A DNA stretch of 64,000 bases from Aquimarina rhabdastrellae. GTDB taxonomy: Bacteria; Bacteroidota; Bacteroidia; Flavobacteriales; Flavobacteriaceae. The stretch covers positions 62,001-126,000 of the forward strand of contig CANDNT010000011.1 of NCBI GenBank assembly GCA_947387485.1. The letters run 5' to 3'. Below, piece after piece: positions 3,579-64,000 of the stretch. The notes beneath the pieces were generated by a model. It saw nothing but the letters and a program-made list of their open reading frames with translations, did not search any database and had not been told where the DNA came from. The translations under genes and the position numbers were made by a program. Numbering within the stretch: the first letter of the stretch is position 1; every line of letters begins with the position of its first letter.

Positions 3579-3609
3579 CTTATTATTCTTTTATAAATGA
3601 ATAACTTTA

Positions 3610-46563: not shown

Positions 46564-47226
46564 TTATCTTACCATTTCTGGATTGTAAAAATTTACCTCG
46601 TGAATTTTATATGTAGCTATTACACTTGTAGTCAAGGATAAACTATATCCATCAATAAATTTAATATTATTAACAAACCACAATTTATCATCCAATAATA
46701 CAGTATTATTTTTCACTTCCAACTTATCTAGAGGTACAAAAAAGCCTCGCCCATCAGCCTTAATAACACTTTCTTTTATTGTCCAATATTTGTAGAACGT
46801 TTTTATTGAACAACTTGAATTTTTAATTTCATCCCACTGATTCGAAGTCATTATATTTCGGAAATTATTAAAGTTTCTTTTTTGATTTTTTTCAATATCA
46901 ATCCCTAGTTTCATATTTTTACCTATTGCACATATCACAAAATCTCCCGAATGTGATATATTAAAATCATACTCTTTTATCTTCAAATAAGGTCTTTTAT
47001 AAGGTGTATAATCGATAAGACTCCAAATATCATTTTTTATTTGGTATCTTCTTAGTGCCTTATCTAGCAACAGTTTTCCTAACAAATGAGCATGTTTATC
47101 TTGCCAACGGATAAATTGTGAATTCTTTTTTCTTAAATCCGGAGGTAACCAAGATAAATATGTAGAGAAACAACTTTGTTCCAGTGGTTCTCTGAACGAT
47201 GTTATAAAAATATCTACAGAATCCAT
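46564..47226 (-). CDS. Sfp-type 4'-phosphopantetheinyl transferase
   Basis: A 220-residue PPTase with all motifs intact: RPYLKIKEYDFNISHSGDFV, GIDIEK (metal ligands Asp and Glu) and KYWTIKESVIKADGRGF. It transfers phosphopantetheine from CoA to the Ser of carrier proteins, here surely the PKS and its ACPs. The start lies 2 bases from the preceding gene stop, so they are translationally linked. It may also serve other carrier proteins, as the PPTase at 42698-43434 is broken. Confidence 0.9.
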   Translation of the reverse strand: MDSVDIFITSFREPLEQSCFSTYLSWLPPDLRKKNSQFIRWQDKHAHLLGKLLLDKALRRYQIKNDIWSLIDYTPYKRPYLKIKEYDFNISHSGDFVICAIGKNMKLGIDIEKNQKRNFNNFRNIMTSNQWDEIKNSSCSIKTFYKYWTIKESVIKADGRGFFVPLDKLEVKNNTVLLDDKLWFVNNIKFIDGYSLSLTTSVIATYKIHEVNFYNPEMVR

Positions 47227-48165: not shown

Positions 48166-49350
48166 TTATTGAATAGCTTTTATTTCTCTCAAATCAAAAT
48201 ATCCATTATATCCTTTCATATACACTGCAGCACGATGTCCAAATAGAATTGTTGCCTCTGATCTGGTTTCCAGCTGATTTTCATAAAAATCTGAAACTAC
48301 TTTTGTTCCTATCGGGTATTCATTATTCCATTGTTCAACTAGTTTTTTAGGGTCTAACAATATCGCTTTTGCTATTGTCTTTATCTTAGATTTGTCATTT
48401 TTCTCCGTTTTAATAGCTTCATCTGTACTTTTCGGTATTGTTTGAGTTTCTTTCTCCTGAATTGTTTCTACTTTTGACTCAGACTTAACATTAGTATTTC
48501 TTTCGTAATCCCGTTTAATGTATCTTGTTAATTTGGTAAGTACATCCCCTACTCCAAGTTCTTCTATCTTCATCTCTCCCTGATCTAACAGATATGTTAT
48601 ACTTTCTGACCATCTTACACTATTTGATAGTTGATCTACAAGGTGTTTAACTACATTTTTATGTTCATAAGGTTTCCCGGTGACATTAGCTATAACATCA
48701 ATTTTTGGTTTATAAAACCTTGTTTTTTTTACAAATCCCTCAAATTCTTTAGCTGCTGCTATCATATGACGTGAATGAAATGCACCACTAGTATTTAAAG
48801 GAATAAACATAATATTTGCCTTTTCAAAAAATGGATGTGCTTTATTAATCTCATCTTTCAATCCTGAAATAACAATCTGAGAGGAAGCATTCAAATTAGC
48901 AATATCAATAGTATCTAATCCTGCCTCCTTCAATATTTTTTGAATTTTTTCTTCCGAAGAATTTAAAATTGCAGCCATTCCTCCATTTTTAGCCTGGCTC
49001 ATTATTTCTCCTCTTTTTTTAACCAGCTTAAGGCCACTTTCAAAACCAAATACTCCTGCTGCATGTAATGCATTATATTCTCCTAAACTATGTCCCGCTA
49101 AAAAATCTGGTTGTCTTTCTCCTTCCTTAATTTTCTTTTTATACGATAAGGCATTCACAACGTATAAAGCAGGTTGTGTATATTGTGTTTGATTTAATTG
49201 TTTATGTGGATCTTCAAGACAAAGTTCTTTAATAGAATATCCTAATATCTTATCTACCTTTTTGATTAAAGTAGGAAATTCATCAAAAAGCTCTTTTCCC
49301 ATTCCTTTTCTTTGAGACCCTTGTCCCGGAAACACATATGTTTTCTTCAT
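48166..49350 (-). CDS. trans-acting malonyl-CoA:ACP acyltransferase with C-terminal extension
   Basis: A 394-residue acyltransferase. The FabD-like domain covers about 1-290: VFPGQGSQRKGMG, GHSLGEYNAL with Ser88, SGAFHSRHM with catalytic His192. As a free-standing AT in a cluster whose PKS has no AT domain, it should load malonyl units on the PKS. After a charged linker rich in Lys/Glu/Thr (about 295-325) comes a 65-residue module ending EATILFGHRAAVYMKGYNGY, which I do not recognise and which FabD lacks. Confidence 0.88.
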   Translation of the reverse strand: MKKTYVFPGQGSQRKGMGKELFDEFPTLIKKVDKILGYSIKELCLEDPHKQLNQTQYTQPALYVVNALSYKKKIKEGERQPDFLAGHSLGEYNALHAAGVFGFESGLKLVKKRGEIMSQAKNGGMAAILNSSEEKIQKILKEAGLDTIDIANLNASSQIVISGLKDEINKAHPFFEKANIMFIPLNTSGAFHSRHMIAAAKEFEGFVKKTRFYKPKIDVIANVTGKPYEHKNVVKHLVDQLSNSVRWSESITYLLDQGEMKIEELGVGDVLTKLTRYIKRDYERNTNVKSESKVETIQEKETQTIPKSTDEAIKTEKNDKSKIKTIAKAILLDPKKLVEQWNNEYPIGTKVVSDFYENQLETRSEATILFGHRAAVYMKGYNGYFDLREIKAIQ

Positions 49351-49385: not shown

Positions 49386-50660
49386 TTATCTCTTTTTTAA
49401 TACGATAGAAGTATTTATCCCTCCAAATCCAAAAGAATTACTCAATGCTATATCAATCTGATAATCAACATATTTTCCTCCACAAAATTGTAATTCATTA
49501 CTAATTGGAGTTTCCAAGTTTTTATTTGGATGTAAAAACCCGTTTCTCATCTGTTCTACTGTAGCAATTGTCTCTACAACACCTGCAGAATACAAACAAT
49601 GTCCTGTCAATCCTTTGGTAGAATTTAACCGCAAGTTCATAATATCCTTTTTAAATATCTTGGTAATAGCTTCTACCTCTGTTTTATCACCTAGAGGAGA
49701 AGAACTGCCATGAGTATTAATATAATCGATATCAGAAGATGATATTTTAGCTTGATTCATTGCTGAAAGCATAGCTTTTGCCTCACCATTTATATTTGGG
49801 TTAGCAGAACTATTACTATCTATATTAAACGAATAGCCTTTAATTTCTGCCAGAAACGGAACCTCTCGTTTAGAAGCACTTGTTTCTGATTCTAAAATTA
49901 CACAAGCACTTGCTTGTCCATAAATAAATCCTTCATGCTTCTTATCGAAAGGGCGACAAGCTCTTTCTGGTTGATCAATAAATTTCTTACCTCCCATAGC
50001 TCCAATATTGATAAATCCCTGAATATCCATTGGAGAAAGATCAGCCACAACACCTACTACCAAACACACGTCAACCAAACCTGACTTAACAAGTTGATAC
50101 CCTTTTATAACACCTACATTTCCAGTTGCAGATGCGCCTCCTACAACAAATCCTTCTCCTTCTATACCAAATAATTCACTTAAAACCCCTACTTGATTTG
50201 TTTCCAAAAATTCAAGCGCATATCTTGGAGAAAGATATTCTGGGTTCTTCATAAATTTTGAAATCAAATCGTATTGATAATTCTGAGTACTGTTTTGCCC
50301 AGCTACAATTACACCTATTCTTTCTGGTAAGGGTTTATTATAATGTAACCTGGCATTAAACCATGCTTCTAAGGCAGAAACAATAGACGTTTGAATGACA
50401 AAAGGAGCTCTTCTACCTAATCGTTTCGCATGTTGATATTTATCTTCTGATATTCCTTGAACATAATCTATAGAATCAACAAAAGAAAAATCTTCTATCC
50501 TAGCTGAAAGATCAACGGATATCTTAGGTTCTTTTAATATAGTAGCTTTCTTTATACCAGATTTTCCAGTTTTTAAGGAGTTACTAAATGATGGAATATC
50601 ATTACCAATAGAAGAAACAATCCCCATGCCTGTAATTCCAACTTTATTTGTTATTAACAT
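49386..50660 (-). CDS. pksF: Decarboxylating ketosynthase-like protein of the HMGS cassette (Cys to Ser)
   Basis: A 424-residue KAS II-like protein. The active-site Cys is replaced by Ser177 (GGASATGNVG); the His motifs remain in INTHGSSSPLGDKTEVE and STKGLTGH. In PksF-type proteins this change removes condensation but keeps decarboxylation of malonyl-ACP to acetyl-ACP, the donor for HMG synthase. The PksF equivalence follows from that change and from the adjacent ACP (50713) and the HMGS/ECH genes further upstream. Confidence 0.85.
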   Translation of the reverse strand: MLITNKVGITGMGIVSSIGNDIPSFSNSLKTGKSGIKKATILKEPKISVDLSARIEDFSFVDSIDYVQGISEDKYQHAKRLGRRAPFVIQTSIVSALEAWFNARLHYNKPLPERIGVIVAGQNSTQNYQYDLISKFMKNPEYLSPRYALEFLETNQVGVLSELFGIEGEGFVVGGASATGNVGVIKGYQLVKSGLVDVCLVVGVVADLSPMDIQGFINIGAMGGKKFIDQPERACRPFDKKHEGFIYGQASACVILESETSASKREVPFLAEIKGYSFNIDSNSSANPNINGEAKAMLSAMNQAKISSSDIDYINTHGSSSPLGDKTEVEAITKIFKKDIMNLRLNSTKGLTGHCLYSAGVVETIATVEQMRNGFLHPNKNLETPISNELQFCGGKYVDYQIDIALSNSFGFGGINTSIVLKKR

Positions 50661-50712: not shown

Positions 50713-50970
50713 TTAACTTTGAACAGACGTAACATAATTTTCAATCAATACATCTACTAACCCCTGTATATTACTTGCGTGAGCAAAACTCATTAAAGGT
50801 ATTTTCATATTTAGTTCCTCCATTGACATGGTGACCACCTCCATTCTATCAATTGAGTTAGCGCCTAATTCTTTCAAACTTTTTTCTATTTGAATCTGAT
50901 TCGAATCTAAATCTGGAAGTACTTCTATAATAACATTTTTCACTACTTCTAATACGTGTTCTTTTGACAT
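50713..50970 (-). CDS. acpK: Donor acyl carrier protein of the HMGS cassette
   Basis: An 85-residue ACP with its phosphopantetheine Ser in LGANSIDRMEVV. Lying directly before the Ser-type ketosynthase gene, it is the probable carrier of malonyl/acetyl for beta-branching (AcpK role). RMEVVTMSMEELNMKIP is the recognition helix II region. Confidence 0.85.
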   Translation of the reverse strand: MSKEHVLEVVKNVIIEVLPDLDSNQIQIEKSLKELGANSIDRMEVVTMSMEELNMKIPLMSFAHASNIQGLVDVLIENYVTSVQS

Positions 50971-51029: not shown

Positions 51030-51755
51030 CTATTGAAAATCGAAAAAACTTAGTTTATTCTGTCCTTTTCTTAATCGATAAGCAGTAAAATCATTTTTGT
51101 TTTTAAATTGTAGATAAATATTATTCTTCAATATTTGAGAAAATATTTGACCAGGAGATTTCCCATAACTATGTCCCGGAAAAATAAGAGTTTCTGGCAT
51201 TATTTTTTTCTTAAGAAACTCTATACTATCATACATACTATGTGCTCCTTTTATATCAGGACATAAGCCACAACCTTCGGCAAATAATGTGTCTCCTGTA
51301 AACAGACTATTCCCTATTAAATAACACATACCACCTGGTGTATGTCCTGGAGTTAACAAGGGTTCAATTTGTATTTGACCAACTGACCAAGGTGTATTAT
51401 CAATTCCTTTTAATTGTTGGTCATAAAAACCAGAATAAGTAATTTCTTCATTAGACATCCATATTGGACAATTATATTTTCTTGAAAGAGGTCTAGCTAA
51501 GTGAACATGATCTGGATGAGAATGTGTAAGTAAAATCCCACTTAAAATCGTTTTTGTTTTTTTCAAAGCTTGATCTACTTTTCTCATATCCCAAGCTGGA
51601 TCTACAATCACTGCCTGATTATTAATATGGTCTACTATTAAATAACTATAGTTTACTATTGACATATAAGTCATTCTTAGAATAACAACTTGCACTACAC
51701 CACTGTGATAAGCATCGGTATATCCGATATTCATTATTGCTTCTTCAAATTTCAT
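51030..51755 (-). CDS. MBL-fold hydrolase (PksB/BaeB-like)
   Basis: A metallo-beta-lactamase-fold hydrolase of 241 residues from the ATG at 51755 (MKFEEAIMN). The zinc motif is LLTHSHPDHVHLARPLS, further ligands lie in LTPGHTPGGM, TGDTLF and FPGHSYG. Related glyoxalase-II-like proteins (PksB, BaeB) are frequent in trans-AT clusters and may hydrolyse stalled thioesters. The frame continues upstream over tRNA-Cys, so a start at 51902 would be false. It starts 34 bases after that tRNA. Confidence 0.85.
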   Translation of the reverse strand: MKFEEAIMNIGYTDAYHSGVVQVVILRMTYMSIVNYSYLIVDHINNQAVIVDPAWDMRKVDQALKKTKTILSGILLTHSHPDHVHLARPLSRKYNCPIWMSNEEITYSGFYDQQLKGIDNTPWSVGQIQIEPLLTPGHTPGGMCYLIGNSLFTGDTLFAEGCGLCPDIKGAHSMYDSIEFLKKKIMPETLIFPGHSYGKSPGQIFSQILKNNIYLQFKNKNDFTAYRLRKGQNKLSFFDFQ

Positions 51756-51789
51756 TAATAAATTAATTATTACATTTTGGCATTTATAG

Positions 51790-51864
51790 AGGCGCCGAGT
51801 GGATTCGAACCACTGAAATAAAGGCTTTGCAGGCCCTTCCCTTTGACCACTTGGATACAGCGCC
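51790..51864 (-). tRNA. tRNA-Cys (GCA), canonical copy
   Basis: Read on the minus strand: acceptor GGCGCTG pairs with CGGCGCC (one G-T pair), discriminator T; anticodon stem AGGGC/GCCTT with loop CTGCAAA; anticodon GCA at 51828-51830 with normal T33; T-arm AGTGG-TTCGAAT-CCACT. A weak promoter-like TTG-N18-CTGATTTG lies between the two tRNA genes. It is embedded in the PKS operon just before the PksB-like gene. Confidence 0.92.
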
Positions 51865-51920
51865 ATTATTATACAAATCAGAGTAACTACCTTACTATAC
51901 AATCATTATAAAGTTTTTGG

Positions 51921-52049: not shown

Positions 52050-53000
52050 TTAACATAAACAGACTCTCAATTTCTGAATCACATTCAAATCTTTTCCAAA
52101 TTGATTCATCATCTGCATTGAAATAGAATCAGAACCTGAAGGAAGTATATATTTAACAAAAGTTGATAACGTTCCACTAGGTCCGATATCTATAAAAGTA
52201 TAATCTCCAGTCTCAACAATTCTTTCTATTGTTTGTTTAAAATTAACTGGATTACGAATAGCTTTCCATATATAGTCTGCACTCAATTCCTGCACTATTC
52301 CGTTTTTCAATGAAGATATTATAGGGGTTTTTGGAGACTCCAACTGTATACTTTCAAAAATTTTCTGGTAAGTATTTTTAATGGAATCTATATGTTTTGT
52401 ATGGAATCCATACTTAACTGGTAATATCTGTGAGATAACATTTTCTTCATTCAATTTTCCATGAAGTTTCTCTATCACAGTTGGTAAGCCACTGACAACA
52501 AAATTATCTTGAAAGTTTTCTGCAGTAAGGTCGCAATTATTAAATAAATCCGAATAACGTCTCATTATTAATTTTGATCCTACAATTGCTAGCATCCCTA
52601 TAAGTTGTGTACGTTCTTGAGTAAGTTTAGCTATTTCAACAGATATCTTGATGCCATCTTCAAGTGAAATCCCTTCTGAAACTACAGCTGCATGAAGTTC
52701 TCCCATGCTATATCCCAAAAGAAAATCTGGATGAATATTCATCTCTTTCAGTAACTTGAACATACTATATTGAATACTCAGTAAAGCTGGATTAGTATAA
52801 ACAATATTATCAAAAGCCTCACTTTTTTTCTTTCCTCGATATAAAACATCAATTAATGAAATACCAATTAATGGATAAGCGATTTCACTACAATGATCCA
52901 TCCAATTTCTAAATTTCTCATTATTCTCATAGAGTTCTTTACCCATCTCATAGTATTGTGATCCCTGACCAGAGAACATACATATAATTTGTTTATTCAT
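52050..53000 (-). CDS. trans-AT-cluster acyltransferase/acyl hydrolase (PedC/PksD-like)
   Basis: A 316-residue AT-fold protein: MFSGQGSQYYEMG, nucleophile Ser98 in LLGYSMGELHAA, catalytic His in KYGFHTKHIDS. Tyr at 97 in place of the usual His (GHSxGE) marks the group of acyl hydrolases or non-malonyl ATs (PedC, PksD) that proofread the assembly line by releasing stalled acyl chains. It is clearly different from the malonyl AT at 48166. The two tRNA-Cys genes follow it directly. Confidence 0.85.
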   Translation of the reverse strand: MNKQIICMFSGQGSQYYEMGKELYENNEKFRNWMDHCSEIAYPLIGISLIDVLYRGKKKSEAFDNIVYTNPALLSIQYSMFKLLKEMNIHPDFLLGYSMGELHAAVVSEGISLEDGIKISVEIAKLTQERTQLIGMLAIVGSKLIMRRYSDLFNNCDLTAENFQDNFVVSGLPTVIEKLHGKLNEENVISQILPVKYGFHTKHIDSIKNTYQKIFESIQLESPKTPIISSLKNGIVQELSADYIWKAIRNPVNFKQTIERIVETGDYTFIDIGPSGTLSTFVKYILPSGSDSISMQMMNQFGKDLNVIQKLRVCLC

Positions 53001-53100: not shown

Positions 53101-54456
53101 TTAAAACTGATATAAAATCCTAAAAGCTATTTGTTTTTGATCTCGATAAGGGTAAAGTCCACTTCTTACATCATCTACAATAGGAATAAGACTATCAAAA
53201 TTCAAAGTAATATGATCGTTCCAATCATAGGAAGCTGATAATATGTTAAAGAAATTAGTATATGGCCCATTATACATAGAAGCCCAACTTAAAGACAAAT
53301 CATCTTTCATCAATTGTTTACTTAAAGCCAATAATACTGTGTAGTTATTTCTTGGAATTCCCTGAATTTTATCAGACCAATCCATAACATGATAATTCAC
53401 AGTTTCCAAACTTAATGTAAAAGTACTGCTAGGAGAATAATCAACTCCAAGCGAAGCATCAATAGCATTTTTTTTAATAATCTGAAAAGATGCATCATTA
53501 TATGCTTTTTTAGATTTAATTGCTAATTCACCTCTAATTAATACATTATTAATTGCTCGATTAAAAGTAATTCCTGCCATGAAAAATCGTTCTTTTTGTT
53601 GAGTAATAAGAGTTGGCGTAACCATGCGTAAAGCATATTGATTATCTATCAAATTGGCGGCCATAATACTAATATCGCTTTTTCCAAAGGTTTTTCTCCA
53701 CCGTAGACCATATTCAAGTAAATTTACATCTTGCTCATCTTTTTGATATTCTACTTTTCCCTCAAAAGGATCAAAATAATATCCAGTATCTCTTCTAGGT
53801 TGTTCGTTAAACTGAGGATAAGGTGAAAAAAACGCACTCCAATATCCAAATGACGAATATTGATCCACAGTTAACATAGGTTGTCCTATTCTTAAATCAT
53901 CTATATTAAGACTCAGTGGTTCCCTATAGTCCAAACGACCAATTTCATTAGTAACAATAGCATAATCAGATTCCCCCCATACTAGTATCTGAATTCCAGC
54001 CTTAATACTTGTTTTATTAAAACTACTTTGTAGATATGCTTCTCGGGTTCTTCCTTCAAAGGTTACTATATCATCTTCATTTTTGAATCTATGATCTTCC
54101 TTTAAAAAAGTAAAAACCTTAGTATCCACATGTACCGAAAAATAATCCAAAAAAGTGTCAGCGTACTCTAACCTAAAAGATAACCGATTATTCATTACCC
54201 TATCTGGTTTTTCAACCTTATATGTAAATCCATATTGTACTCCTAATCTTGTAGCATTCCATATATCAGAAATCCAGAACGATTTTTCTTTTTCTTCTTC
54301 ATCTACTTTAAGTTCCATGTCGATTGTATCAAAATCTTCAAACTCTATTATACTATCATTTTCTACAGGAATCTGGGCAGACAGATATGAAACACTGAAT
54401 AATGAAATTATTATTCTAACTGTTCTATTAGCGTAAGAATTCAAATTGCTCTTCAT
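53101..54456 (-). CDS. Outer-membrane beta-barrel protein (DUF1302-like)
   Basis: A protein of about 451 residues from the ATG at 54456. The signal peptide (RIIISLFSVSYLSAQ) is followed by an acidic linker and a beta-barrel ending in a terminal Phe (AFRILYQF), as outer-membrane proteins do. KAGIQILVWGESDYAI, LDYREPLS and DDLRIGQPMLTV resemble the DUF1302 family, often linked to RND/MMPL exporters. Here it probably has a role in moving the polyketide or a precursor across the outer membrane. Confidence 0.75.
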   Translation of the reverse strand: MKSNLNSYANRTVRIIISLFSVSYLSAQIPVENDSIIEFEDFDTIDMELKVDEEEKEKSFWISDIWNATRLGVQYGFTYKVEKPDRVMNNRLSFRLEYADTFLDYFSVHVDTKVFTFLKEDHRFKNEDDIVTFEGRTREAYLQSSFNKTSIKAGIQILVWGESDYAIVTNEIGRLDYREPLSLNIDDLRIGQPMLTVDQYSSFGYWSAFFSPYPQFNEQPRRDTGYYFDPFEGKVEYQKDEQDVNLLEYGLRWRKTFGKSDISIMAANLIDNQYALRMVTPTLITQQKERFFMAGITFNRAINNVLIRGELAIKSKKAYNDASFQIIKKNAIDASLGVDYSPSSTFTLSLETVNYHVMDWSDKIQGIPRNNYTVLLALSKQLMKDDLSLSWASMYNGPYTNFFNILSASYDWNDHITLNFDSLIPIVDDVRSGLYPYRDQKQIAFRILYQF

Positions 54457-54746
54457 TGTATTTTGCCAGCAAAGAATAATAAAAGGTGTAAGTTTCATAA
54501 AAATTACCTTTTTGAGGCTATCAAAAACTCTTTTTAGTTTTATTGGTTTCTGTTTATAAGAACTGGAATTAACAGTATCTAATAATTTATGAGGTATAAT
54601 CCCATTCTGATTTGAATATACTTTTACAAAAAACTACAGAGGTAAACTCTAAATAAAAAAACAAAAGCATTTATATCTGATTACATTTTTTATCTAAACA
54701 TTTTAAAAACCTTTTTTTCAGAAAATTCATATCAGAACGGGTATTA

Positions 54747-55523
54747 TTAGCTCTCCCAGGGAAATTGTCCAGTTTTTACAAATCTTGCTATTTTGTCCAA
54801 ATTTTCCTGGTCAGAAAACACTTCTAAATTTGCAGCCAAGGCATTTGGTTTAGCAACCTCTGTAAAATCACTAAGTTGAGTTATATAATTTTTATATCGA
54901 GTTACTCCTTTTTTCGATAGTAATCGAAGTCTCAATAAGTGTTTTCTAAGTAAGTTTTCACTATTTTCTGCATAAACATCCACTAACCCCCAATCCTGTG
55001 CTTGCTTAGCTGTTATAGGTTGGGTCATTAATGTTAAATAATGAGCTTTGGAAAAGCCAACTCTACGAATTAAAAAAGGTAATACACAAGCTGGCATCAA
55101 TCCAAACAAAAGTTCTGACAAACTGAATACTGCTGTATCATTACACAATACAATATCGCATGCTGCAACAAAACCAATTCCGCCTGCATTAGCTTTCCCT
55201 CTTACATGTGCTATGGTGATGTACGGACCTGAAGTTAGTTTATTCCATAAATCATACATAGGTTCTGGATTTTGTTCCTCATGAAGTTTTCCGTCGTCCA
55301 GGCTTTGTTGAATCCCTTTAAAATCTGCCCCAAAACAAAATACTTCTTTAGAACCTTCTATGACAACAATCTTAACTTTATCTTTGCATTGATCAAGTAC
55401 TGCTGTAAATTCCCTGATCATATCCTGGTTAATGGCATTATTAGCTTCTGGGCGATCAATTTTAATAAAACAAATATCTTCCTCAAATTTAACCTGTATA
55501 GTTTCGTATTCAGTTGCATTCAT
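54747..55523 (-). CDS. pksH: Enoyl-CoA hydratase-like ECH1 (dehydratase) of the HMGS cassette
   Basis: A crotonase-fold protein of about 258 residues. VFCFGADFKGI, YITIAHVRGKANAGGIGFVA, FSLSELLFGLMPACVLPFL and the terminal GQFPWES match the ECH1/PksH type that dehydrates the HMG-like branch. The ECH2 decarboxylase type (PksI) looks different and is absent here. I take the ATG at 55523, which overlaps the HMGS stop as TAATG, over the ATG four codons upstream. Confidence 0.85.
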   Translation of the reverse strand: MNATEYETIQVKFEEDICFIKIDRPEANNAINQDMIREFTAVLDQCKDKVKIVVIEGSKEVFCFGADFKGIQQSLDDGKLHEEQNPEPMYDLWNKLTSGPYITIAHVRGKANAGGIGFVAACDIVLCNDTAVFSLSELLFGLMPACVLPFLIRRVGFSKAHYLTLMTQPITAKQAQDWGLVDVYAENSENLLRKHLLRLRLLSKKGVTRYKNYITQLSDFTEVAKPNALAANLEVFSDQENLDKIARFVKTGQFPWES

Positions 55524-56782
55524 TATGACACCCATTCGTATTCTCTTTTAAATTCTTTGATTTCCTTTAAAAACAGTGTCTCTTTCTTTAATGCTTTTCT
55601 TGCTTGCGGAATAAAACCAGTATCCAACGTTACATTACGTGTTCCAAATTTTACTGCATTACTGCCTACCAATAGATTTTCATACTCATCCATTTGTAAT
55701 TCATATCGTTTATCAAATTGTTCTTTGATACCAAATTTTTGAATACTCTTTTGGCTTTCTTTGTTTACAATACCGCTAAAAAACTCGGAACAACAACCTG
55801 ACCCATAAGAAAAACAACCAATTCTTTGAGGTTCATTAAAAGAACCATTCTCGATTGTACTTGCTAATGACATCATAGCTGTTGCTCCCATAATATTACC
55901 AATGCGTTGACAATAGATCAATCCAGGTACAACACGATTTTCAAAATCTACATCAATGTCCTGAGTTTTGGCTTTAACTGTCTTTCTCATTAAATTACGA
56001 TGGGCTCCTTTTACCATACCTCCAAAAGGAGTATGAAAAGCCAAATAACTAAAAGTCTTGGCATAATCCGCCTCTGGCACACGTTTTTTATATTCGTAAA
56101 ATGCATTTTCACAACAATCCAGATAAGAAAGTAGTGATAAGTCTGAATCTCCAGCTTCTCCATCTGTAGTAGGTCTGCAAGTATCCATTACCTGATATCC
56201 ATAATAGCCATTTGCTCCAATATCTACCTGGAAAACATATGGTTTTTCACTTACTAACATTGCAACTGCACCTGCCCCTCCGCTTGGTTCGGCAAAGGAC
56301 CATTCCATTGTAAGAGCATCTCCTCCTTCTTCTATCATAAAACGGGATACATCTGTAGCGATTACAAGAGCCTTTGCTCCGGGAGAGGTTTGAGACAAAA
56401 TAAAATTAATGGCCATTTGAAATCCTGCTACTCCAGAATAGCAGGCATTTTTTAATTCAAACAAGCGACAATTACGATTTAATCCTAATATCTCATGAAA
56501 ATATGTGCTCATGGATTTTCCAAAATCAAAAGATGATTCTGTACATGAAATTACCAATTCGATACGATCTTTTTCTTCTGAACTAAGTGAATCTATAATA
56601 GGTTTGGCTGCATTTACACCAAATGTAACTGGATCTTCATAAGGTAATGCTACGGTTTTTTCTTTCATTAAGAGATTCTTAAATCTAGATGTATCAAGTT
56701 TACGATGTTTGGCAAGTTTTTCTACGTCTAAAAATGCTGTACCTGCAAAAACATTCATTGCTTCAATTCCTGCTATTCGCAT
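55523..56782 (-). CDS. pksG: HMG-CoA synthase-like beta-branching enzyme
   Basis: A 419-residue HMG synthase homologue. The catalytic Cys114 is in FELKNACYSGVAG, the general base Glu82 in ISCTESSFDFG and the His in AFHTPFGGMVKGAHRNLM. It adds the acetyl group from the donor ACP to a beta-keto intermediate on the PKS, the first step of beta-branching. Its stop overlaps the ECH1 start (TAATG). Length and motifs are standard. Confidence 0.92.
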   Translation of the reverse strand: MRIAGIEAMNVFAGTAFLDVEKLAKHRKLDTSRFKNLLMKEKTVALPYEDPVTFGVNAAKPIIDSLSSEEKDRIELVISCTESSFDFGKSMSTYFHEILGLNRNCRLFELKNACYSGVAGFQMAINFILSQTSPGAKALVIATDVSRFMIEEGGDALTMEWSFAEPSGGAGAVAMLVSEKPYVFQVDIGANGYYGYQVMDTCRPTTDGEAGDSDLSLLSYLDCCENAFYEYKKRVPEADYAKTFSYLAFHTPFGGMVKGAHRNLMRKTVKAKTQDIDVDFENRVVPGLIYCQRIGNIMGATAMMSLASTIENGSFNEPQRIGCFSYGSGCCSEFFSGIVNKESQKSIQKFGIKEQFDKRYELQMDEYENLLVGSNAVKFGTRNVTLDTGFIPQARKALKKETLFLKEIKEFKREYEWVS

Positions 56783-57251: not shown

Positions 57252-59246
57252 TTATGCGTAGACTCTTTGAGCTGCTTTCTTAGAAAAATCATCAAGTTGC
57301 TTTTGAAAATCTGCCTCTGCTTTAGCATTTGCTTTCTTTTGTGCTCCACTAAGTTTTTCTTTATTTTGTTGGATCAATTTATGCAATACTTCAAGTAAAA
57401 TATCTATATCTTCTTCTGTATTTTCTATTCCTAAACTAACCCTAACAACTCCTGGTAATTGAGTTTTTGGAGCTACTGTCAACACAACACGTTGTACCTG
57501 TTCGAGTACTGGGCTAATTCCTGTTATTTTTTTAACTAATAAATGAGAACAATGACAACCATATCTTACACCAATACCTCCTTTATGGAACATTTCTTCT
57601 GCTAATTTATTGTGCAAAATTCCTTTTGTCTCAAAAACAATTACCCCTATCCTATTGTCAAATTGAGAAGATTTTGGATCATTTACTCCAAAAACATCAA
57701 GACCTGGTATTTTAGCCATTCCTTCAAGTGCTCTTTTAGTCAAAGCCTGTTCATCTTCATGTACAACATCCATTCCTATACGCTGCAAAAGTATCAGAGC
57801 CTTACCTAATGAAGCTATCCCTCCTATATTCTCTTCTCCTGATGATTGAAGTCTCTTTATCTTATCCTTATTATAATTAAGTAATCCCTTTTTTACTACT
57901 AATACTCCAGTACCAAATGGCGCATAAACCTTATGAGCTGAGAAAGCCATAAAATCTATATCATCTTTTTCCATATCTACCTTTAGGTGAGCTACTACTT
58001 GGGCTCCATCAACCAAAATTTTTGCTCCATACCGATGCGCAATTTTAGAAATTTCTGTAACATCATTACAACTTCCCAAAACATTTGAAGCGCCACTAAT
58101 AGCAATAATTTTTATACGTTTCTTTCCATACTTCTGTTCTTGATTATACTCCTTAAGATTATTTTCTAATTCTGCTAAATCTACAAACCCTTCACTATTT
58201 ACATCTAATCTGATTAACGACTTTTTTGATACCATACGCCATGGCAAATCATTTGATGAATGTTCAAGTAAGGAAATTAATACTACTGGGTCTACATCAT
58301 TTTTTGATGTTGTCATTAAACTTTCAGAGACAAGGTTTATTGATTCAGTAGTATTTTTGGTAAAAATTATATCGTATTTTTCTAAAGATGCTCCCAGAAT
58401 TTCACTACATACAGTACTTACTTCTCTAACAACTTCCTCTCTTCTCTTTTTCGATAATCTCAAGGATTTACGAAAAGTATCCCATATTGGTATAAATGTA
58501 GGAGTACTTGCACTATTATCGAGATTAACGAATGGCTTTTCTCCCTCTAAGGTAGGTACAATAGATCCACGACCTATTAATGTTTTCCTAAGTTTTTTCA
58601 ATAGTTCCACCCCAGAATATTCAATAAGCTTATCTTGATAAAGCAATTCATTTACTTCAATATTTATCGGAGATAATTCCTTAAAGATATTTTTTCCATA
58701 TTTTTTCATCAATAATAGAGCCTTACTAAATGTAATCACATTTATAATTGCGGGAGTACCTGGTTCAAATTTATCTGGTCCAGTATTCCAAATAATCCAA
58801 CTCGCAGCAACCAATCTTGCTGTACCTCCACCACACTCTGAAGGAGCTCCTGTTGGTAATGCTTTTTTATCAATAGCTAACGCAGTTATTCCTAACGGAA
58901 TTCCTATATCTATACTTGTTAAAGTTTTATAGTTTCCAGGTTTAAGTTCCAAAATCAAATCTTTTGTACGTTTTGGAGAACAAAAGATTACGATATACTT
59001 ATCCTTGTTCAAATTCATATATTCTATAGCTATATTTCTAGCTTGTTCGTATAAATATGAAGATACCATTGAATTGTGCCCACTTCCACGATGTACGTTG
59101 GAATAAGTCTCTAATGCAGCATATACACCACGCTCCAGCTCTTCAAATACTGCCTCTGATCCATTACTATTTTGAGTCCTTTTTTCATTTTTTTTGAGTT
59201 GGCGAATGTTTGATGCCTCATACTCATTGTACATGGTTGTTTCCAT
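57252..59246 (-). CDS. SufS-like class V aminotransferase-fold protein with duplicated N-terminal segment
   Basis: A 664-residue PLP protein. Residues 230-640 form a complete class V fold: FVNLDNSAST, ILVDGAQVVAHLKVD, the PLP-binding Lys439 in MAFSAHKVYAPFG and Cys566 in RYGCHCSHL at the place of the SufS persulfide Cys, with an extra Cys564. Residues 35-190 repeat the front part of such a fold (ALETYSNVHRGSGHNS, AIINVITFSK) without a PLP lysine. A Lys/Ala/Gln-rich tail closes the protein. It may be a cysteine desulfurase or a lyase acting on a carrier-bound substrate. It follows the methyltransferase gene by 61 bases. Confidence 0.78.
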   Translation of the reverse strand: METTMYNEYEASNIRQLKKNEKRTQNSNGSEAVFEELERGVYAALETYSNVHRGSGHNSMVSSYLYEQARNIAIEYMNLNKDKYIVIFCSPKRTKDLILELKPGNYKTLTSIDIGIPLGITALAIDKKALPTGAPSECGGGTARLVAASWIIWNTGPDKFEPGTPAIINVITFSKALLLMKKYGKNIFKELSPINIEVNELLYQDKLIEYSGVELLKKLRKTLIGRGSIVPTLEGEKPFVNLDNSASTPTFIPIWDTFRKSLRLSKKRREEVVREVSTVCSEILGASLEKYDIIFTKNTTESINLVSESLMTTSKNDVDPVVLISLLEHSSNDLPWRMVSKKSLIRLDVNSEGFVDLAELENNLKEYNQEQKYGKKRIKIIAISGASNVLGSCNDVTEISKIAHRYGAKILVDGAQVVAHLKVDMEKDDIDFMAFSAHKVYAPFGTGVLVVKKGLLNYNKDKIKRLQSSGEENIGGIASLGKALILLQRIGMDVVHEDEQALTKRALEGMAKIPGLDVFGVNDPKSSQFDNRIGVIVFETKGILHNKLAEEMFHKGGIGVRYGCHCSHLLVKKITGISPVLEQVQRVVLTVAPKTQLPGVVRVSLGIENTEEDIDILLEVLHKLIQQNKEKLSGAQKKANAKAEADFQKQLDDFSKKAAQRVYA

Positions 59247-59307
59247 TTTGAACCTTGTTTTATTTGGTTTTTATTTAATTAGTATTCCCTTCCTATTACA
59301 AGATTTC

Positions 59308-59937
59308 TTACTTTTTTTGTGCTATAATTAAATACTGTCGCCCTCTTCGACGTATACATTCTGTTTTCAGAATTTTAAATTCCGTATTAAAAATTAATTC
59401 TTCTAATTCTGAAAGATTATAAATTCTCAAATTAGGAATTAATCCAATCTTACTTATTAAAGATAGAGACATTCCCATCAAAGATCTTTTACCTAAACAA
59501 GGAGTTACAGAAATAAATAATCCTCCAGGTTTTAACAATTCATGTATTCTTTTTAATATATTAGGTATATCATCAACCAAATGAAGCACATACATTCCTA
59601 AAATAACATCAAAACCTTCTTTCTTATATCTTGAATCAAATATCGTTGTATGTGTATATTCTACGTTTTGTATACCTTCTTTATTGGCTTTATCCCTTGC
59701 TATATTGATCATTTTTGATGATATATCCATCCCATATACCATTTTAACATGATGAGCAATTTCGTTTGCTAATAATCCTGTAGCACATCCAAAATCTAAT
59801 ACGCAGTCTTCTTTGTGGAGGTATTTTTTAGTTTTTTCCAAGATTTTAACTCTTCCTTCTCTATCTTTCATTTCCTCTTTATCATACCCTTTGGCACTTT
59901 TGTCCCAAAAACTTTCAGATTTATCTATTGTATGCAT
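59308..59937 (-). CDS. Class I SAM-dependent methyltransferase
   Basis: A 209-residue methyltransferase. Motif I is VLDFGCATGLLANEIA (about 44-59); YGMDISSKMINIARDKA (motif II region), GFDVILGMYVLHLVDD and LKPGGLFISVTP follow in order. It is of the Methyltransf_11 type, with small-molecule acceptors. Between two cysteine-desulfurase-like genes in a polyketide cluster it could be an S- or O-methyltransferase for the product. The substrate is inferred from position only. Confidence 0.85.
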   Translation of the reverse strand: MHTIDKSESFWDKSAKGYDKEEMKDREGRVKILEKTKKYLHKEDCVLDFGCATGLLANEIAHHVKMVYGMDISSKMINIARDKANKEGIQNVEYTHTTIFDSRYKKEGFDVILGMYVLHLVDDIPNILKRIHELLKPGGLFISVTPCLGKRSLMGMSLSLISKIGLIPNLRIYNLSELEELIFNTEFKILKTECIRRRGRQYLIIAQKK

Positions 59938-60148
59938 TTGGTTAATCGTATTTATTCAATTTATAAATTCTAGTTATATCAAGTGTATATATAAAAACAT
60001 CAATCCTTTATTAAATCATTATCTAACATAAAGGGTTGTGCATTTTACTCTAGTAATTTAAGTATATAACTAGTTTTATACTAGTTAACATTGAAAAAAT
60101 AGCTATATAAAATTCCCCTTTTTAAATTCATATCAATAAAACTAGATA

Positions 60149-61354
60149 TTACAATCTAAGTTCTTGACTTTTTAATTTTATTACTGTTCCAGTTTCTTCT
60201 CTTTTTTTCTCCTCCAAATATTGCTTTAATACCTTTAATGTATATTTGATATGCTTGTACTTTGTATCATTACCAAAACTAATCCGAATAGATTCCTGAG
60301 CTTCCTTATCCGTCAATCCTATTGCTTTTAATACATGAGATGGTTTGTTTGAAGAAGAACTACAGGCTGAACCAGCTGAAACAGCTATTCCTTGATAATC
60401 TAATGCTCTCATTAATTCACCACTTGTAATTCCAGGAAAGGTTAAATTGATTGTATTTGTTAAACAATTATCCATTGGAGAATTAATAATAATATCGCTT
60501 TTTATAACTTTTAACTCATCAATAAAATGTTTTTTAAGAAATGTATTTTTTGATGTATTAGAAATAAGCTTTTTCACTTGTTTACAGGCCTCACCAAAAC
60601 CAGCTATGTTGTGAATTGACTCGGTACCAGCACGCATTCCTTCTTCCTGATGTCCCCCATGAATATAAGACTCCAATGGGCTACTAATTCTGGAATACCA
60701 TGCTCCTACTCCTTTAGGTCCATAAAGTTTATGAGCAGAAAATGTTGCATAATCAACACCAAGTTCTTTAACATTTATTGGTATTTTCCCTAAAGCTTGC
60801 ACACAATCCGAAAAAACCAATGCATTTTTAACCTTGGCCAGTTTCGTTATTTTTTTTACATCCTGTATAGTACCTATTTCATTATTTGCCAACATACAAC
60901 AAACCAAAAAGGTTTTGTCGTCTATCATATCTTCTAGATCTTTAAGTAAAACACGACCTGATTTATCTACTGGACAATATTGTACTTCAATTCCTAATTT
61001 ACTTATATACTCTAGAGTACTCATCACAGATGGATGTTCTATTGGTGTAGAAATTATTTTATTTTTTTCTGGATAGAATATATTACTTACTGTTTTTAAC
61101 AACGCATTATTTGATTCTGTGGCACAACTGGAAAAATATACTTCATGTGAATGTGCTCCTATCGCAGTTGCGACTTGTTCTCTGGCTTTTTCAATAATCT
61201 GTGCAGACATTTTCCCTTTAGCATAGCCAGAAGAAGGATTACCCCAATAAGATTTCAATACTTGATTCATAACACTTCTAACTTTTGGAGTGACCTTAGT
61301 AGTTGCATTATTATCAAAATAGACTCTGTTTTTACTCAATAACTGTTTTATCAT
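60149..61354 (-). CDS. Cysteine desulfurase (IscS/NifS type)
   Basis: A 401-residue class I desulfurase. VYFDNNATTKVTP opens it, PLP is bound at Lys209 (FSAHKLYGPKG), and the persulfide Cys331 lies in SAGSACSSSSNKPSHVL. It releases sulfur from cysteine as an enzyme-bound persulfide. No iscU, iscA or suf genes accompany it. Instead it stands next to a C_GCAxxG_C_C protein (16 bases away) and inside a polyketide cluster, so the sulfur is probably used in the product rather than for Fe-S clusters. Confidence 0.92.
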   Translation of the reverse strand: MIKQLLSKNRVYFDNNATTKVTPKVRSVMNQVLKSYWGNPSSGYAKGKMSAQIIEKAREQVATAIGAHSHEVYFSSCATESNNALLKTVSNIFYPEKNKIISTPIEHPSVMSTLEYISKLGIEVQYCPVDKSGRVLLKDLEDMIDDKTFLVCCMLANNEIGTIQDVKKITKLAKVKNALVFSDCVQALGKIPINVKELGVDYATFSAHKLYGPKGVGAWYSRISSPLESYIHGGHQEEGMRAGTESIHNIAGFGEACKQVKKLISNTSKNTFLKKHFIDELKVIKSDIIINSPMDNCLTNTINLTFPGITSGELMRALDYQGIAVSAGSACSSSSNKPSHVLKAIGLTDKEAQESIRISFGNDTKYKHIKYTLKVLKQYLEEKKREETGTVIKLKSQELRL

Positions 61355-61370
61355 GATAATAGTCTTTAAA

Positions 61371-62192
61371 TTATAAAGCAGCTAGCGCTTCAATGATCTT
61401 TTGACAACCTCCTTTTTTGATATAATCAGAATGATCATCAATGTCTTTAAACTCTTTTTTGGTAATTTTACTACACAACACTTCTGAATCTGTCTGCATA
61501 TAAAAAGCTCTCAACATTTTTTTGGTTTCCAAACTATCAAATGATGAAGGAGATTTGCCTGGATTCTTTTTTATCCAGTCCACCATCTTGTACCAAATTG
61601 CCGCACTTAGTGCCCCGCATTCTTTACCACTTAACCCAAGTCCTCCTGCATATCCTGCAACCATAAGCATTTCTTCTTCAGTAGCTCCCATCTTTCTAAC
61701 CACTTCTGATGCACAACTTACTGATCCTGGACAGAAATTTACAGATTCATCTGACAAACCCTCATCTGCCGATTTAATTGCCTCAGGAGCCCATCTCCCT
61801 GCCAGCTTCATACACCCGAATGCTTTTCCTGTAAACAATACTTTAAGAGGCGCTAATTTACCTGTAAGATCCATATCTGTGATTTCCCGGCAACTGATTG
61901 TATTTGTTCTTTTTTTAAAAGACTCCATTAAGTGCTGTGTGGCTGTAATGGCCATTGCTATAGCCTCTCCAATATCTTCATTTCTACGATATGATTCTGC
62001 CCCTGCCGCCAAAACTGCACCTCCTATCATTCCACATTGATATCCTCTGTTTAGTAACCCTCCTGCAAAGGGAGATGCTGCTATTTCTGCTATTTCGTTT
62101 GGCACACCATATTCTGTATTGAGTAGAGAGCAAAATGCTGTACCACAAGTCCCTTTGGATAGTACCTTTAATCCTTCTTTGATAGCTTTCAT
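61371..62192 (-). CDS. C_GCAxxG_C_C family protein (putative redox or sulfur carrier)
   Basis: A 273-residue protein rich in conserved cysteines, in two similar halves. The first has GTCGTAFCSLLN, GYQCGMIGG and later SCREI; the second has FCPGSVSCASEVV, KECGALSAAIWY and GGCQKIIEAL. This pattern is the C_GCAxxG_C_C family, thought to be redox or metal-binding. Its gene is directly before the cysteine desulfurase gene (16-base spacing), so it may accept or pass on persulfide sulfur. That role is inference. Confidence 0.78.
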   Translation of the reverse strand: MKAIKEGLKVLSKGTCGTAFCSLLNTEYGVPNEIAEIAASPFAGGLLNRGYQCGMIGGAVLAAGAESYRRNEDIGEAIAMAITATQHLMESFKKRTNTISCREITDMDLTGKLAPLKVLFTGKAFGCMKLAGRWAPEAIKSADEGLSDESVNFCPGSVSCASEVVRKMGATEEEMLMVAGYAGGLGLSGKECGALSAAIWYKMVDWIKKNPGKSPSSFDSLETKKMLRAFYMQTDSEVLCSKITKKEFKDIDDHSDYIKKGGCQKIIEALAAL

Positions 62193-62466: not shown

Positions 62467-64000
62467 CTATGCATTAATCTCTTCCAGCTGATCTACTGCT
62501 TTTCTATTCTGGTTTACATTTGATGTATTTAACGCTCTTACATAAAAATCTTTGATCCTAACCAGCACATCACCTTTATCATTAAGCATCTTTATTGTAA
62601 ATTTTTTGATCCCTGTTTGAAGTCTTTCTTCATCAACCCCTGATGGTTCTACATATGCGTAACAGATATGAGATAATGGCCTTAAAATTTCAATTTCGTC
62701 AATAGCAAAAGGTAAGTGTGGAATTGAAGGTTCTTTTTGCCCCATTAGCCCTGCGACAGTTTGTAAAGCTCCATCAATTAAAGATGGATGTAATACATAG
62801 TGATCTGCATCTTTAATTAAACAATTAGAAAGCTTCAATTTTGATATAGCAAAAGAATTACCTATATAAAATTCTTGGATAGTTCTAAACGTTTTTCCAT
62901 ATGTAAAACCTACTTTATCAAAAACAGCATAATAATCTTCTGTATTTCGATTTACCGAACATTGCTCTTTCAGTTTTTGTATTGGTATATTTTCGATTCC
63001 ATTAACAAAACTTCCTCCATTTTGAAAATATAATTTCCCTTCTGAATGTAGTAATGGTTCACCTTCATAATCAATTGAGGTAATTTTAAATTCTGTCCCT
63101 TCTCCAATTGATTTTAATGATGTTTGCACACATAGTGTTCCATTTTCAAAACTTAAAGGATGAGCCCATACGATATCTCTTATCTTACAAACCTTTTGCT
63201 CTCCTGCCAGAGATCCTGCAATATTTGCCATTTCAATAAATCCAGAACCAGGAAATATCTTAGTTCCATTTACCTGATGATCCAATGCATAAAATTCTTT
63301 ATCCGACAACCACGAACTAAAACGAATTTCCTTTAGTGTAGATGAATTGTAGGAAATCAATGGGTGTAGCTGTTCCTTTTTTAAAGAGGATTCTGTTTTT
63401 TTATCTTCTCTTACCCGATCAGATACCCAATGTCTTTCTTTAGCAAAAGGGTAAGTAGGTAGCGAAATTTTAAGTGGTGTATGATTTTTGTACAAATCTC
63501 CCCAGTCAATCACTTCTCCTGTCACCCATAAATATGCCAGTTGATTAAGTCTTCCTTTTTCAAATAAATCTCTATGCGCTTTTTGTTTATCACCAAAGTT
63601 CTTTCTACCTTGACGAATAGTTACTTTTCCTTTATATAATTGAGCATTCTCTTCTTCACAATTCCAGTTTTCTAATTTATCCTTAAGATCTTCCTTATCT
63701 GAAACTATTATTGCTAATCTCTCAGACATGGCTTCACGCCCTACTTGTAAAGTAAAAGATAGATCCGTAAGATTGAGTTGATTCTCTTCTTTTAGATAAT
63801 CATTCAACTGGTTGGTATATCTTTTTAAGGCTTCTTGATTCCTGGCCGAAAGAACAATCAAATGTGGCCCTTTCTTCTGGATTTCTTTCTGTTCATTTTT
63901 CTTTTCATACTCTTCTATTAGGAGGCAGGCATTTACTCCTCCTGCTCCAAACGAGTTAATCAACGCTCTTCTAGGATAATCCGATACTGGTTCCCATGGA
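62467..64000 (-). CDS. trans-AT polyketide synthase, C-terminal part (KS end - DH), 5' part beyond the right edge
   Basis: Open from the right edge to the stop at 62467. The first visible residues, WEPVSDYPRRALINSFGAGG, are the end of a ketosynthase domain. A post-KS docking linker follows (PHLIVLSARNQEALKRY, LADLSF-like TDLSFTLQVGREAM, with no AT domain). Then comes a dehydratase domain: LHPLI, ALDHQVNGTKIFPGSGF with the catalytic His (codon around 63277-63279) and HPSLIDGALQTV with the catalytic Asp. The protein ends soon after DH, with no KR, ACP or thioesterase. The absence of AT and the separate AT genes identify the trans-AT type. Several stops follow in frame, so the end is real. Confidence 0.9.
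   Translation of the reverse strand, partial: PWEPVSDYPRRALINSFGAGGVNACLLIEEYEKKNEQKEIQKKGPHLIVLSARNQEALKRYTNQLNDYLKEENQLNLTDLSFTLQVGREAMSERLAIIVSDKEDLKDKLENWNCEEENAQLYKGKVTIRQGRKNFGDKQKAHRDLFEKGRLNQLAYLWVTGEVIDWGDLYKNHTPLKISLPTYPFAKERHWVSDRVREDKKTESSLKKEQLHPLISYNSSTLKEIRFSSWLSDKEFYALDHQVNGTKIFPGSGFIEMANIAGSLAGEQKVCKIRDIVWAHPLSFENGTLCVQTSLKSIGEGTEFKITSIDYEGEPLLHSEGKLYFQNGGSFVNGIENIPIQKLKEQCSVNRNTEDYYAVFDKVGFTYGKTFRTIQEFYIGNSFAISKLKLSNCLIKDADHYVLHPSLIDGALQTVAGLMGQKEPSIPHLPFAIDEIEILRPLSHICYAYVEPSGVDEERLQTGIKKFTIKMLNDKGDVLVRIKDFYVRALNTSNVNQNRKAVDQLEEINA

Follow-up and report, generated by a model that had tools for sequence, protein, structure and literature searches.

What do two cysteine desulfurase-like genes, a cysteine-rich protein gene and a methyltransferase gene contribute directly behind a polyketide synthase (PKS) gene? 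The question is raised by positions 57252-62192 of a 64,000-nucleotide stretch of the Aquimarina rhabdastrellae genome (4,995,868 bp in 59 contigs), which corresponds to positions 62001-126000 of contig C11 and is here called the window. An earlier note on this DNA had read the four genes as a module bringing cysteine sulfur into the polyketide by a stand-alone desulfurase route, which it held to be new and different from the DUF-SH didomain of the leinamycin family. The analysis described here makes it rather probable that they serve sulfur supply and S-tailoring in a trans-acyltransferase (trans-AT) PKS pathway where a DUF-SH didomain, of the type behind the antitumour drug leinamycin, installs the sulfur. 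The four intact open reading frames (ORFs) belong to the families that the note had named, and span exactly 57252-62192:

61371..62192, minus strand: double C_GCAxxG_C_C (CGCA) protein of 273 aa, with a PF09719 match in two stretches.
60149..61354, minus strand: NifS/IscS-like cysteine desulfurase (class V) of 401 aa, from family matches and the SAHK and SAGSACSS motifs.
59308..59937, minus strand: class I S-adenosylmethionine (SAM)-dependent methyltransferase of 209 aa, from generic family matches; a candidate S-methyltransferase by its presumed substrate.
57252..59246, minus strand: SufS-like desulfurase of 664 aa, from a C-terminal class-V core with the pyridoxal phosphate (PLP)-binding lysine and a CHC motif.

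All four ORFs are uninterrupted. The PKS gene stops at 62467 and the CGCA gene lies 274 bp behind it, followed in block order by gaps of 16, 211 and 61 bp, and then by 469 bp up to an HMG-CoA synthase-like (HMGS) gene. No same-strand ATG ORF of at least 25 aa was found in the four gaps of the window, where the sole ATG ORF of that size codes for 39 aa on the opposite strand. A promoter and terminator scan gave results close to those of shuffled sequences (47 promoter-like sites with 44.8 expected, and 1 terminator-like site with 3.1 expected).

Family searches covered 19 ORFs at 39678-63999, a set that excluded an 85-aa acyl carrier protein (ACP) and two opposite-strand ORFs of at least 150 aa each that overlap genes (55272-55742 and 61522-62040). 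In this set there was no match to an Fe-S scaffold or carrier, in agreement with the earlier note, which had seen no Fe-S assembly partner in the block; by this search the block does not have the make-up of an ISC, SUF or NIF assembly operon, with a scaffold or carrier beside the desulfurase. A separate SUF operon was found on contig C2, with SufB, SufC, SufD, SufS and a SUF-associated protein above the NCBIfam cut-offs and a SufE-like protein below, and a further IscS-like gene on contig C23. Given these genes elsewhere, we reject the reading that the desulfurases of the block are housekeeping enzymes located here by accident.

A scan of genome contigs for the CGCA protein revealed 10 related loci with 87-96% identity: seven of Aquimarina type (Aquimarina macrocephali, AU58, atlantica, megaterium, muelleri and Aq78, and a Bacteroidia metagenome-assembled genome), two from Fulvivirga (F. 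marina and F. kasyanovii) and one from Chitinophaga (C. varians). The order PKS, CGCA, desulfurase, methyltransferase, SufS-like, HMGS, enoyl-CoA hydratase (ECH), DUF1302 and acyltransferase was kept in all of them, so that the four-gene set does recur beside other PKS loci, where the earlier note had proposed to look for it, and because the gene order is identical in 10/10 loci the block is beyond chance. The cluster of C. varians is split over two contigs (C2 and C64), and it likewise occupies two contigs in the window genome and in Aq78.

The DUF-SH didomain that the note had suggested looking for in the full PKS was found in the window genome on contig C24, at 79% identity, and is followed there by ORFs of the sizes expected for an aminotransferase and for a thioesterase (TE)-bearing PKS. 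Contig C11 merely stops at 151617, inside a PKS gene, and with the didomain on C24 the idea that this system has no DUF-SH is rejected. The didomain is also present in 10/10 related genomes with CGCA. The sulfur role tied to the PKS, which the note had proposed, is thus strengthened by the co-inheritance of the set with a sulfur-installing type of didomain in the genomes examined; the contrast that it drew with DUF-SH systems falls, as the assembly line itself carries one.

In AU58 the cluster is complete on one contig. The first PKS (3516 aa) consists of ACP, DUF (PF09924-like, LPG_synthase_C-like), PLP lyase (PF01212), ketosynthase (KS), dehydratase (DH), ketoreductase (KR), ACP, KS and DH. 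It is followed by a class-III aminotransferase gene and a 1265-aa PKS with the motifs of ACP-KS-ACP-TE, and then by genes for MMPL and LolA-like proteins, a GMC oxidoreductase, PKSs of 6152, 3532 and 4737 aa, a 413-aa gene and a last PKS of 4626 aa, the counterpart of the 4623-aa PKS of the window.

The DUF stands directly before the PLP lyase within the PKS, as expected for a DUF-SH didomain. Over 92-99% of their length, DUF and SH together share 36-38% identity with four PKSs from actinobacterial plasmids, three of which are adjoined by LnmK, ACP and HMGS genes, the fourth record being without annotation. The best PDB match of the AU58 lyase was 9cen, a 'Polyketide Synthase Protein' (1.1e-54) and the entry that a DUF-SH lyase from Streptomyces matched best as well; tyrosine phenol-lyases came next (3.7e-43). 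An alignment of 11 Bacteroidota and four actinobacterial PKS rows contained 148 invariant columns. One of these is K567, whose position corresponds to the lysine pair that holds PLP in tyrosine phenol-lyase. In a tree, the 15 PKS lyases were split from three stand-alone rows of tyrosine phenol-lyase or tryptophanase type with 100/100 support, with a warning of long branches from the tool. The domain thus clusters with PKS SH domains, apart from both stand-alone enzymes, and on this split the idea of a misplaced tyrosine phenol-lyase is rejected. From its sequence it is predicted to be of the thiocysteine-lyase type.

Full-length DUF-SH, CGCA (at least 92% identity) and the SufS-like gene were found in the same 9 of 66 genomes of the genus, in which another genome (G404) has a stand-alone lyase only. 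Among 79 genomes of the C. varians genus, DUF-SH was present in that genome alone (1e-40). In the phylum sample, 138 of 395 genomes gave a DUF-SH match at 1e-20; only G000 was full length among the matches listed, the others covering the lyase part only (query position 330 onwards).

The 4623-aa PKS of the window, of which the 3' end lies at 62467..64000, contains KS, DH, KR and ACP domains and finishes in KS-DH, with no match to a carrier protein or a thioesterase after this final pair. Acyl_transf_1 was not matched in this PKS, which by its domain content is of the trans-AT type. Since it ends in KS-DH without a carrier and the PKS of contig C24 begins with ACP-DUF-SH, the two would form one joint module; sulfur would therefore be set mid-chain, and the line, as read in AU58, would end at the TE of the 1265-aa PKS. 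A hydropersulfide would be installed on-line, probably in the middle of the chain.

The CGCA protein scored 78.3 bits against PF09719 (Pfam gathering cut-off 27), a family annotated in Pfam as 'putative redox-active protein', and narrowly missed NCBIfam TIGR01909 (44.4 bits; cut-off 47.4). It has two sets of four cysteines (C16, C53, C101, C127, C160, C192, C240 and C263), and these eight residues are invariant in the 11 cluster proteins and in 20 more distant ones (leaving out the short row L015). A further cysteine, C154, is confined to the cluster form and absent from every other aligned row. Outside the related clusters the protein is rarer and more distant: the family sample of 397 genomes yielded 17 others (44-53% identity), and the phylum sample three, of which two had 50-53% and the third 28% identity. 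No PKS gene adjoins them in the two loci inspected (L016 and L017). No relative was detected in a plasmid collection at 1e-5 or in the PDB (best E 0.64), and the AlphaFold model was too poor to use (mean pLDDT 41.4).

Among the 10 related clusters, which span three genera, CGCA is 87-96% identical, compared with about 58-65% for the PKS. CGCA and HMGS were the most conserved pair of the six proteins compared, with CGCA above HMGS in six of the 10 loci and HMGS higher in the other four. In the four pairs compared at fourfold-degenerate sites, CGCA genes agreed at no more than 17-50% of them. Recent transfer is therefore rejected as the cause of the high identity, and selection must be maintaining the protein. 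By this comparison CGCA, like HMGS, is under strong constraint, and we propose that it serves as a sulfur or redox relay.

Both desulfurases of the block retain their catalytic residues. The NifS/IscS-like protein has an intact PLP-lysine motif (SAHK) and Cys loop (SAGSACSS), SAHK and GSACS being kept in 11/11 clusters, and its nearest PDB relatives are 1ecx (3.3e-90) and IscS (1.6e-73). Its best NCBIfam model, TIGR03402, gave 382.9 bits, below the cut-off of 530.75, so that it is not assigned to this equivalog. This shortfall was dropped as a mark of unusual function, because the ordinary-looking IscS-like gene on C23 misses the cut-off too (382.4 bits). The SufS-like protein likewise keeps SAHK and CHC in 11/11 clusters; it departs from the SufS subfamily both in score (254.3 bits against TIGR01979, cut-off 475.1; the SufS of the SUF operon reached 587.3) and in chain length. 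Its class-V core begins near residue 237 and, when aligned to SufS, lacks about 23 residues around the KFEAGTP loop. Compared without composition correction, the extra N-terminal part of about 236 aa weakly matched two SufS segments, 234-328 (E 7e-6) and 57-95 (E 0.016), and looks like the remnant of a degenerate SufS copy. The AlphaFold model of this protein was too poor to use (mean pLDDT 49.6).

The methyltransferase matched only generic methyltransferase families in Pfam and NCBIfam. It is found in 10/10 related loci, and weakly resembles a methyltransferase from a Kitasatospora DUF-SH cluster (27% over 139 aa, E 2.7e-7). GnmP, which methylates the hydropersulfide in guangnanmycin according to the available text of PMC8479088, is likewise a SAM methyltransferase encoded alongside a DUF-SH PKS, a likeness by description and not by sequence comparison. 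By this analogy S-methylation by the cluster enzyme is possible; it is weakened by the generic family matches and by the conservation of the gene, the lowest within the block in the comparisons made (58-71% identity).

What computation shows is which genes the cluster contains, that their catalytic residues are conserved, that the didomain is homologous to DUF-SH and that the set is co-inherited; each chemical step, like the relay role, the S-methylation and a sulfur-containing product, is our inference. The NifS/IscS-like and SufS-like enzymes would take sulfur from cysteine as an enzyme persulfide, and the eight-cysteine CGCA protein would relay this sulfur or keep it reduced, making L-thiocysteine available. 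On the assembly line, the DH would leave an alpha,beta-unsaturated ACP-thioester, and the DUF would join L-thiocysteine (Cys-SSH) to it by conjugate addition. Acting as a PLP lyase, the SH domain would then cut the C-S bond so that -SSH (or -SH) remains on the chain, and the sulfur-bearing chain would pass through further modules before reaching the thioesterase. The methyltransferase may cap the sulfur. In its most specific form, which we put forward as a tentative possibility, two desulfurases and an eight-cysteine carrier constitute a dedicated persulfide supply that provides L-thiocysteine or sulfane sulfur to a mid-chain DUF-SH unit, leading after capping by the methyltransferase to methyl-persulfide polyketides in marine Bacteroidota.

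Several observations weigh against this explanation. The DUF-SH module contains no KR, and the Michael acceptor may arise in more than one way. In the dehydrating-bimodule reading of trans-AT PKSs the alkene comes from a preceding KS-KR-ACP module, and KS-KR-ACP is indeed the composition of the module before this one; elongation is favoured over such a bimodule because the last KS retains its Cys, HGTGT and KxNIGH motifs. Alternatively, the acceptor might come from HMGS branching of the kind that module 8 of leinamycin performs. The reaction of both block enzymes could differ from that of a cysteine desulfurase, since both fall below every NCBIfam cut-off shown, an argument tempered by the same failure of the C23 gene. 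No family of sulfur acceptors, MnmA, TusA and rhodaneses included, was matched in the ORFs searched. The genes of the cluster travel together, and linkage therefore indicates membership of the pathway and not the step that is served. In seven stretches around the four actinobacterial DUF-SH loci (42 kb being covered for the unannotated fourth record), tblastn gave no match to CGCA, the NifS-like or the SufS-like protein at E 1e-3; HMGS was found at each locus, and the methyltransferase matches were weak (E 2.7e-7 to 2e-5). Finally, in the available text of PMC8479088, cystathionine gamma-lyase (CGL) of primary metabolism is given as a source of thiocysteine, which it can make in Streptomyces.

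This last point agrees with an explanation in which the desulfurases and CGCA assemble or restore a metal-thiolate centre, Fe-S or otherwise, in CGCA itself or in another cluster enzyme, while the DUF-SH unit draws on L-thiocysteine from general metabolism. The two four-cysteine sets, conserved also in the 20 distant homologues, would suit metal ligation, and leinamycin-type clusters seem to need no extra desulfurases. However, the block has no detected scaffold or carrier gene, the SUF operon elsewhere in the genome could serve this need, and no radical-SAM enzyme or other obvious Fe-S client family was seen among the cluster proteins searched; we therefore consider this explanation unlikely, if still deserving of attention. 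The class-V enzymes might instead be PLP enzymes of another step, such as a beta-lyase or an aminotransferase acting on a tailoring intermediate, within a general tailoring set. Their NifS- and SufS-model scores would allow this, as they would for the C23 gene, and so would the odd N-terminal part of the SufS-like protein, but the Cys motif of both enzymes, which an aminotransferase would not need, is kept in every cluster, and AU58 has a separate class-III aminotransferase. Such an assignment seems quite improbable.

The stand-alone desulfurase route of the earlier note, in which a persulfide passes straight to the polyketide independently of DUF-SH and is then S-methylated, has a precedent of a kind: thiotetronate pathways take their polyketide sulfur from a NifS-like desulfurase (StuS), as the available text of PMC5518548 describes, and such a route would accordingly not have been new. 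It would also agree with the retained catalytic residues. Against it stand the DUF-SH didomain of the line, with its invariant lysine at the expected place, the lack of any thiouridylase-like family match in the ORFs searched, and the finding that CGCA at 87% identity or more was never seen without DUF-SH (9/9 in the genus and 10/10 related genomes). Because the same assembly line carries the didomain, the desulfurases are more likely to be its suppliers than to form an alternative route, to which we give only a slim chance. It is more improbable again that CGCA and the desulfurases shield the producing strain against the reactive persulfide that it makes, by detoxification or self-resistance, and have no part in biosynthesis. 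Hydropersulfides are described as unstable in the available text of PMC8479088, and the annotation of PF09719 tentatively assigns a redox role, but two cysteine desulfurases would be expected to produce persulfide sulfur and not to remove it.

With the cluster read as a DUF-SH pathway with its own sulfur supply, it can be compared with known systems. According to the portions of PMC8479088 and PMC7618002 available, GnmT, LnmJ and WsmR have SH domains that act as thiocysteine lyases and require L-thiocysteine (PMC8479088), the DUF is proposed to catalyse the conjugate addition (PMC7618002), and the terminal module of the leinamycin family is KS-ACP-ACP-DUF-SH-TE (PMC7618002). The cluster shares with this family the DUF-then-SH order, the trans-AT context and HMGS beta-branching, a likeness that rests on the actinobacterial PKSs with LnmK adjoining and not on the sequences of LnmJ, GnmT and WsmR themselves. 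It differs in having an N-terminal ACP before the didomain and further KS modules after it, as the AU58 PKS shows in place of the leinamycin-type terminal module, and in having desulfurases and CGCA in the cluster. Nor do the PKSs searched form a nonribosomal peptide synthetase-PKS hybrid, since condensation and AMP-binding domains were absent both from AU58 PKS1-3 and the 1265-aa PKS (E 1e-5; PKS4-5 lay outside the search) and from the C11 PKSs of the window genome (in the 3986-aa ORF, minus residues 1851-2239 and 3501-3769). Three further DUF-SH PKS families with highly variable module architectures are reported outside the leinamycin family in the available text of PMC8479088, whose main text names neither 'Aquimarina' nor 'Bacteroid'. 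It is therefore possible that lines which continue past a DUF-SH unit have been reported already.

The thiotetronate systems (StuS/StuJ and TlmS/TlmJ) likewise have a NifS-like desulfurase serving a sulfur-bearing polyketide, and loss of StuS abolished production (PMC5518548, in the text available). They differ in having a thiouridylase-like partner at a separate locus and an iterative PKS, whereas here CGCA, methyltransferase and SufS-like genes are neighbours in a modular trans-AT cluster. No description of the CGCA/desulfurase block was found in the literature searched, which is no proof that it is unpublished, and the combination of DUF-SH with desulfurases and CGCA encoded in one cluster seems to be new.

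Cuniculene clusters have been reported in Aq78, Aq349, EL33 and A. muelleri in the available text of PMC9323603 and PMC9860996. The genomes of Aq78 and A. muelleri hold the block and DUF-SH. As the strains overlap and both multi-KS contigs of Aq78 belong to the cluster, it is very likely the cuniculene cluster. For F. kasyanovii, a 103-kb trans-AT cluster is listed among 14 without a characterised counterpart (PMC12565237, 2025, in the text available).

The PKS gene of the window and the cluster genes beyond the block are as follows:

62467..64000, minus strand: 3' end of the 4623-aa trans-AT PKS, from domain matches; the ORF runs on beyond the window.
55523..56782, minus strand: HMGS of the beta-branching cassette, from a family match; position kept in 10/10 loci.
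54747..55535, minus strand: ECH of the beta-branching cassette, from a family match and the related loci.
53101-54498: DUF1302 protein, present in 10/10 related loci.
52050..53000, minus strand: stand-alone acyltransferase (trans-AT), from a family match and the related loci.
51030..51902, minus strand: metallo-beta-lactamase-fold hydrolase; best NCBIfam model SolJ, under its cut-off.
50713..50970, minus strand: stand-alone ACP of 85 aa, with a DSI motif by eye and a homologue in the Chitinophaga locus.
49386..50660, minus strand: stand-alone KS, with Ser in place of the expected active-site Cys (GGASATG, by eye).
48166..49350, minus strand: second stand-alone acyltransferase, with a C-terminal extension, from a family match.
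47229-48158: metalloenzyme superfamily (PF01676) protein, within the PKS cluster.
46564..47226, minus strand: 4'-phosphopantetheinyl transferase, from a family match.

The stand-alone KS is, from its active-site residue, apparently decarboxylating. Upstream of the 4623-aa PKS lie a 412-aa gene (L007:14398-15636 on C11) and, beyond it, an ORF of 3986 aa or more, which reaches the contig end and contains KS, DH, three ECH stretches, a twin ACP and KR. The 412-aa protein between the two PKS genes had no Pfam match; on visual reading it has an HxxxD motif, as in condensation or acyltransferase enzymes, and similar genes occupy the same place in AU58 and F. marina. In AU58 the class-III aminotransferase gene adjoins the TE-bearing PKS, and the GMC-type oxidoreductase is also part of the cluster (L072:10747-12513 and L073:1305-2567). 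The presence of these two enzymes suggests that the product would carry an amino group and undergo an oxidation.

The source of L-thiocysteine for DUF-SH lines is not fully settled, and published work favours general CGL (PMC8479088, in the text available). Since this cluster encodes desulfurases together with a strongly constrained cysteine-rich protein, the question of supply becomes open to direct tests in cultured Aquimarina with a named product, cuniculene. If the explanation proposed here is true, these lines would contain a natural DUF-SH unit that works inside a modular line and does not end it, which would be useful for the engineering of C-S bonds, and CGCA would offer a functional hint for the C_GCAxxG_C_C family.

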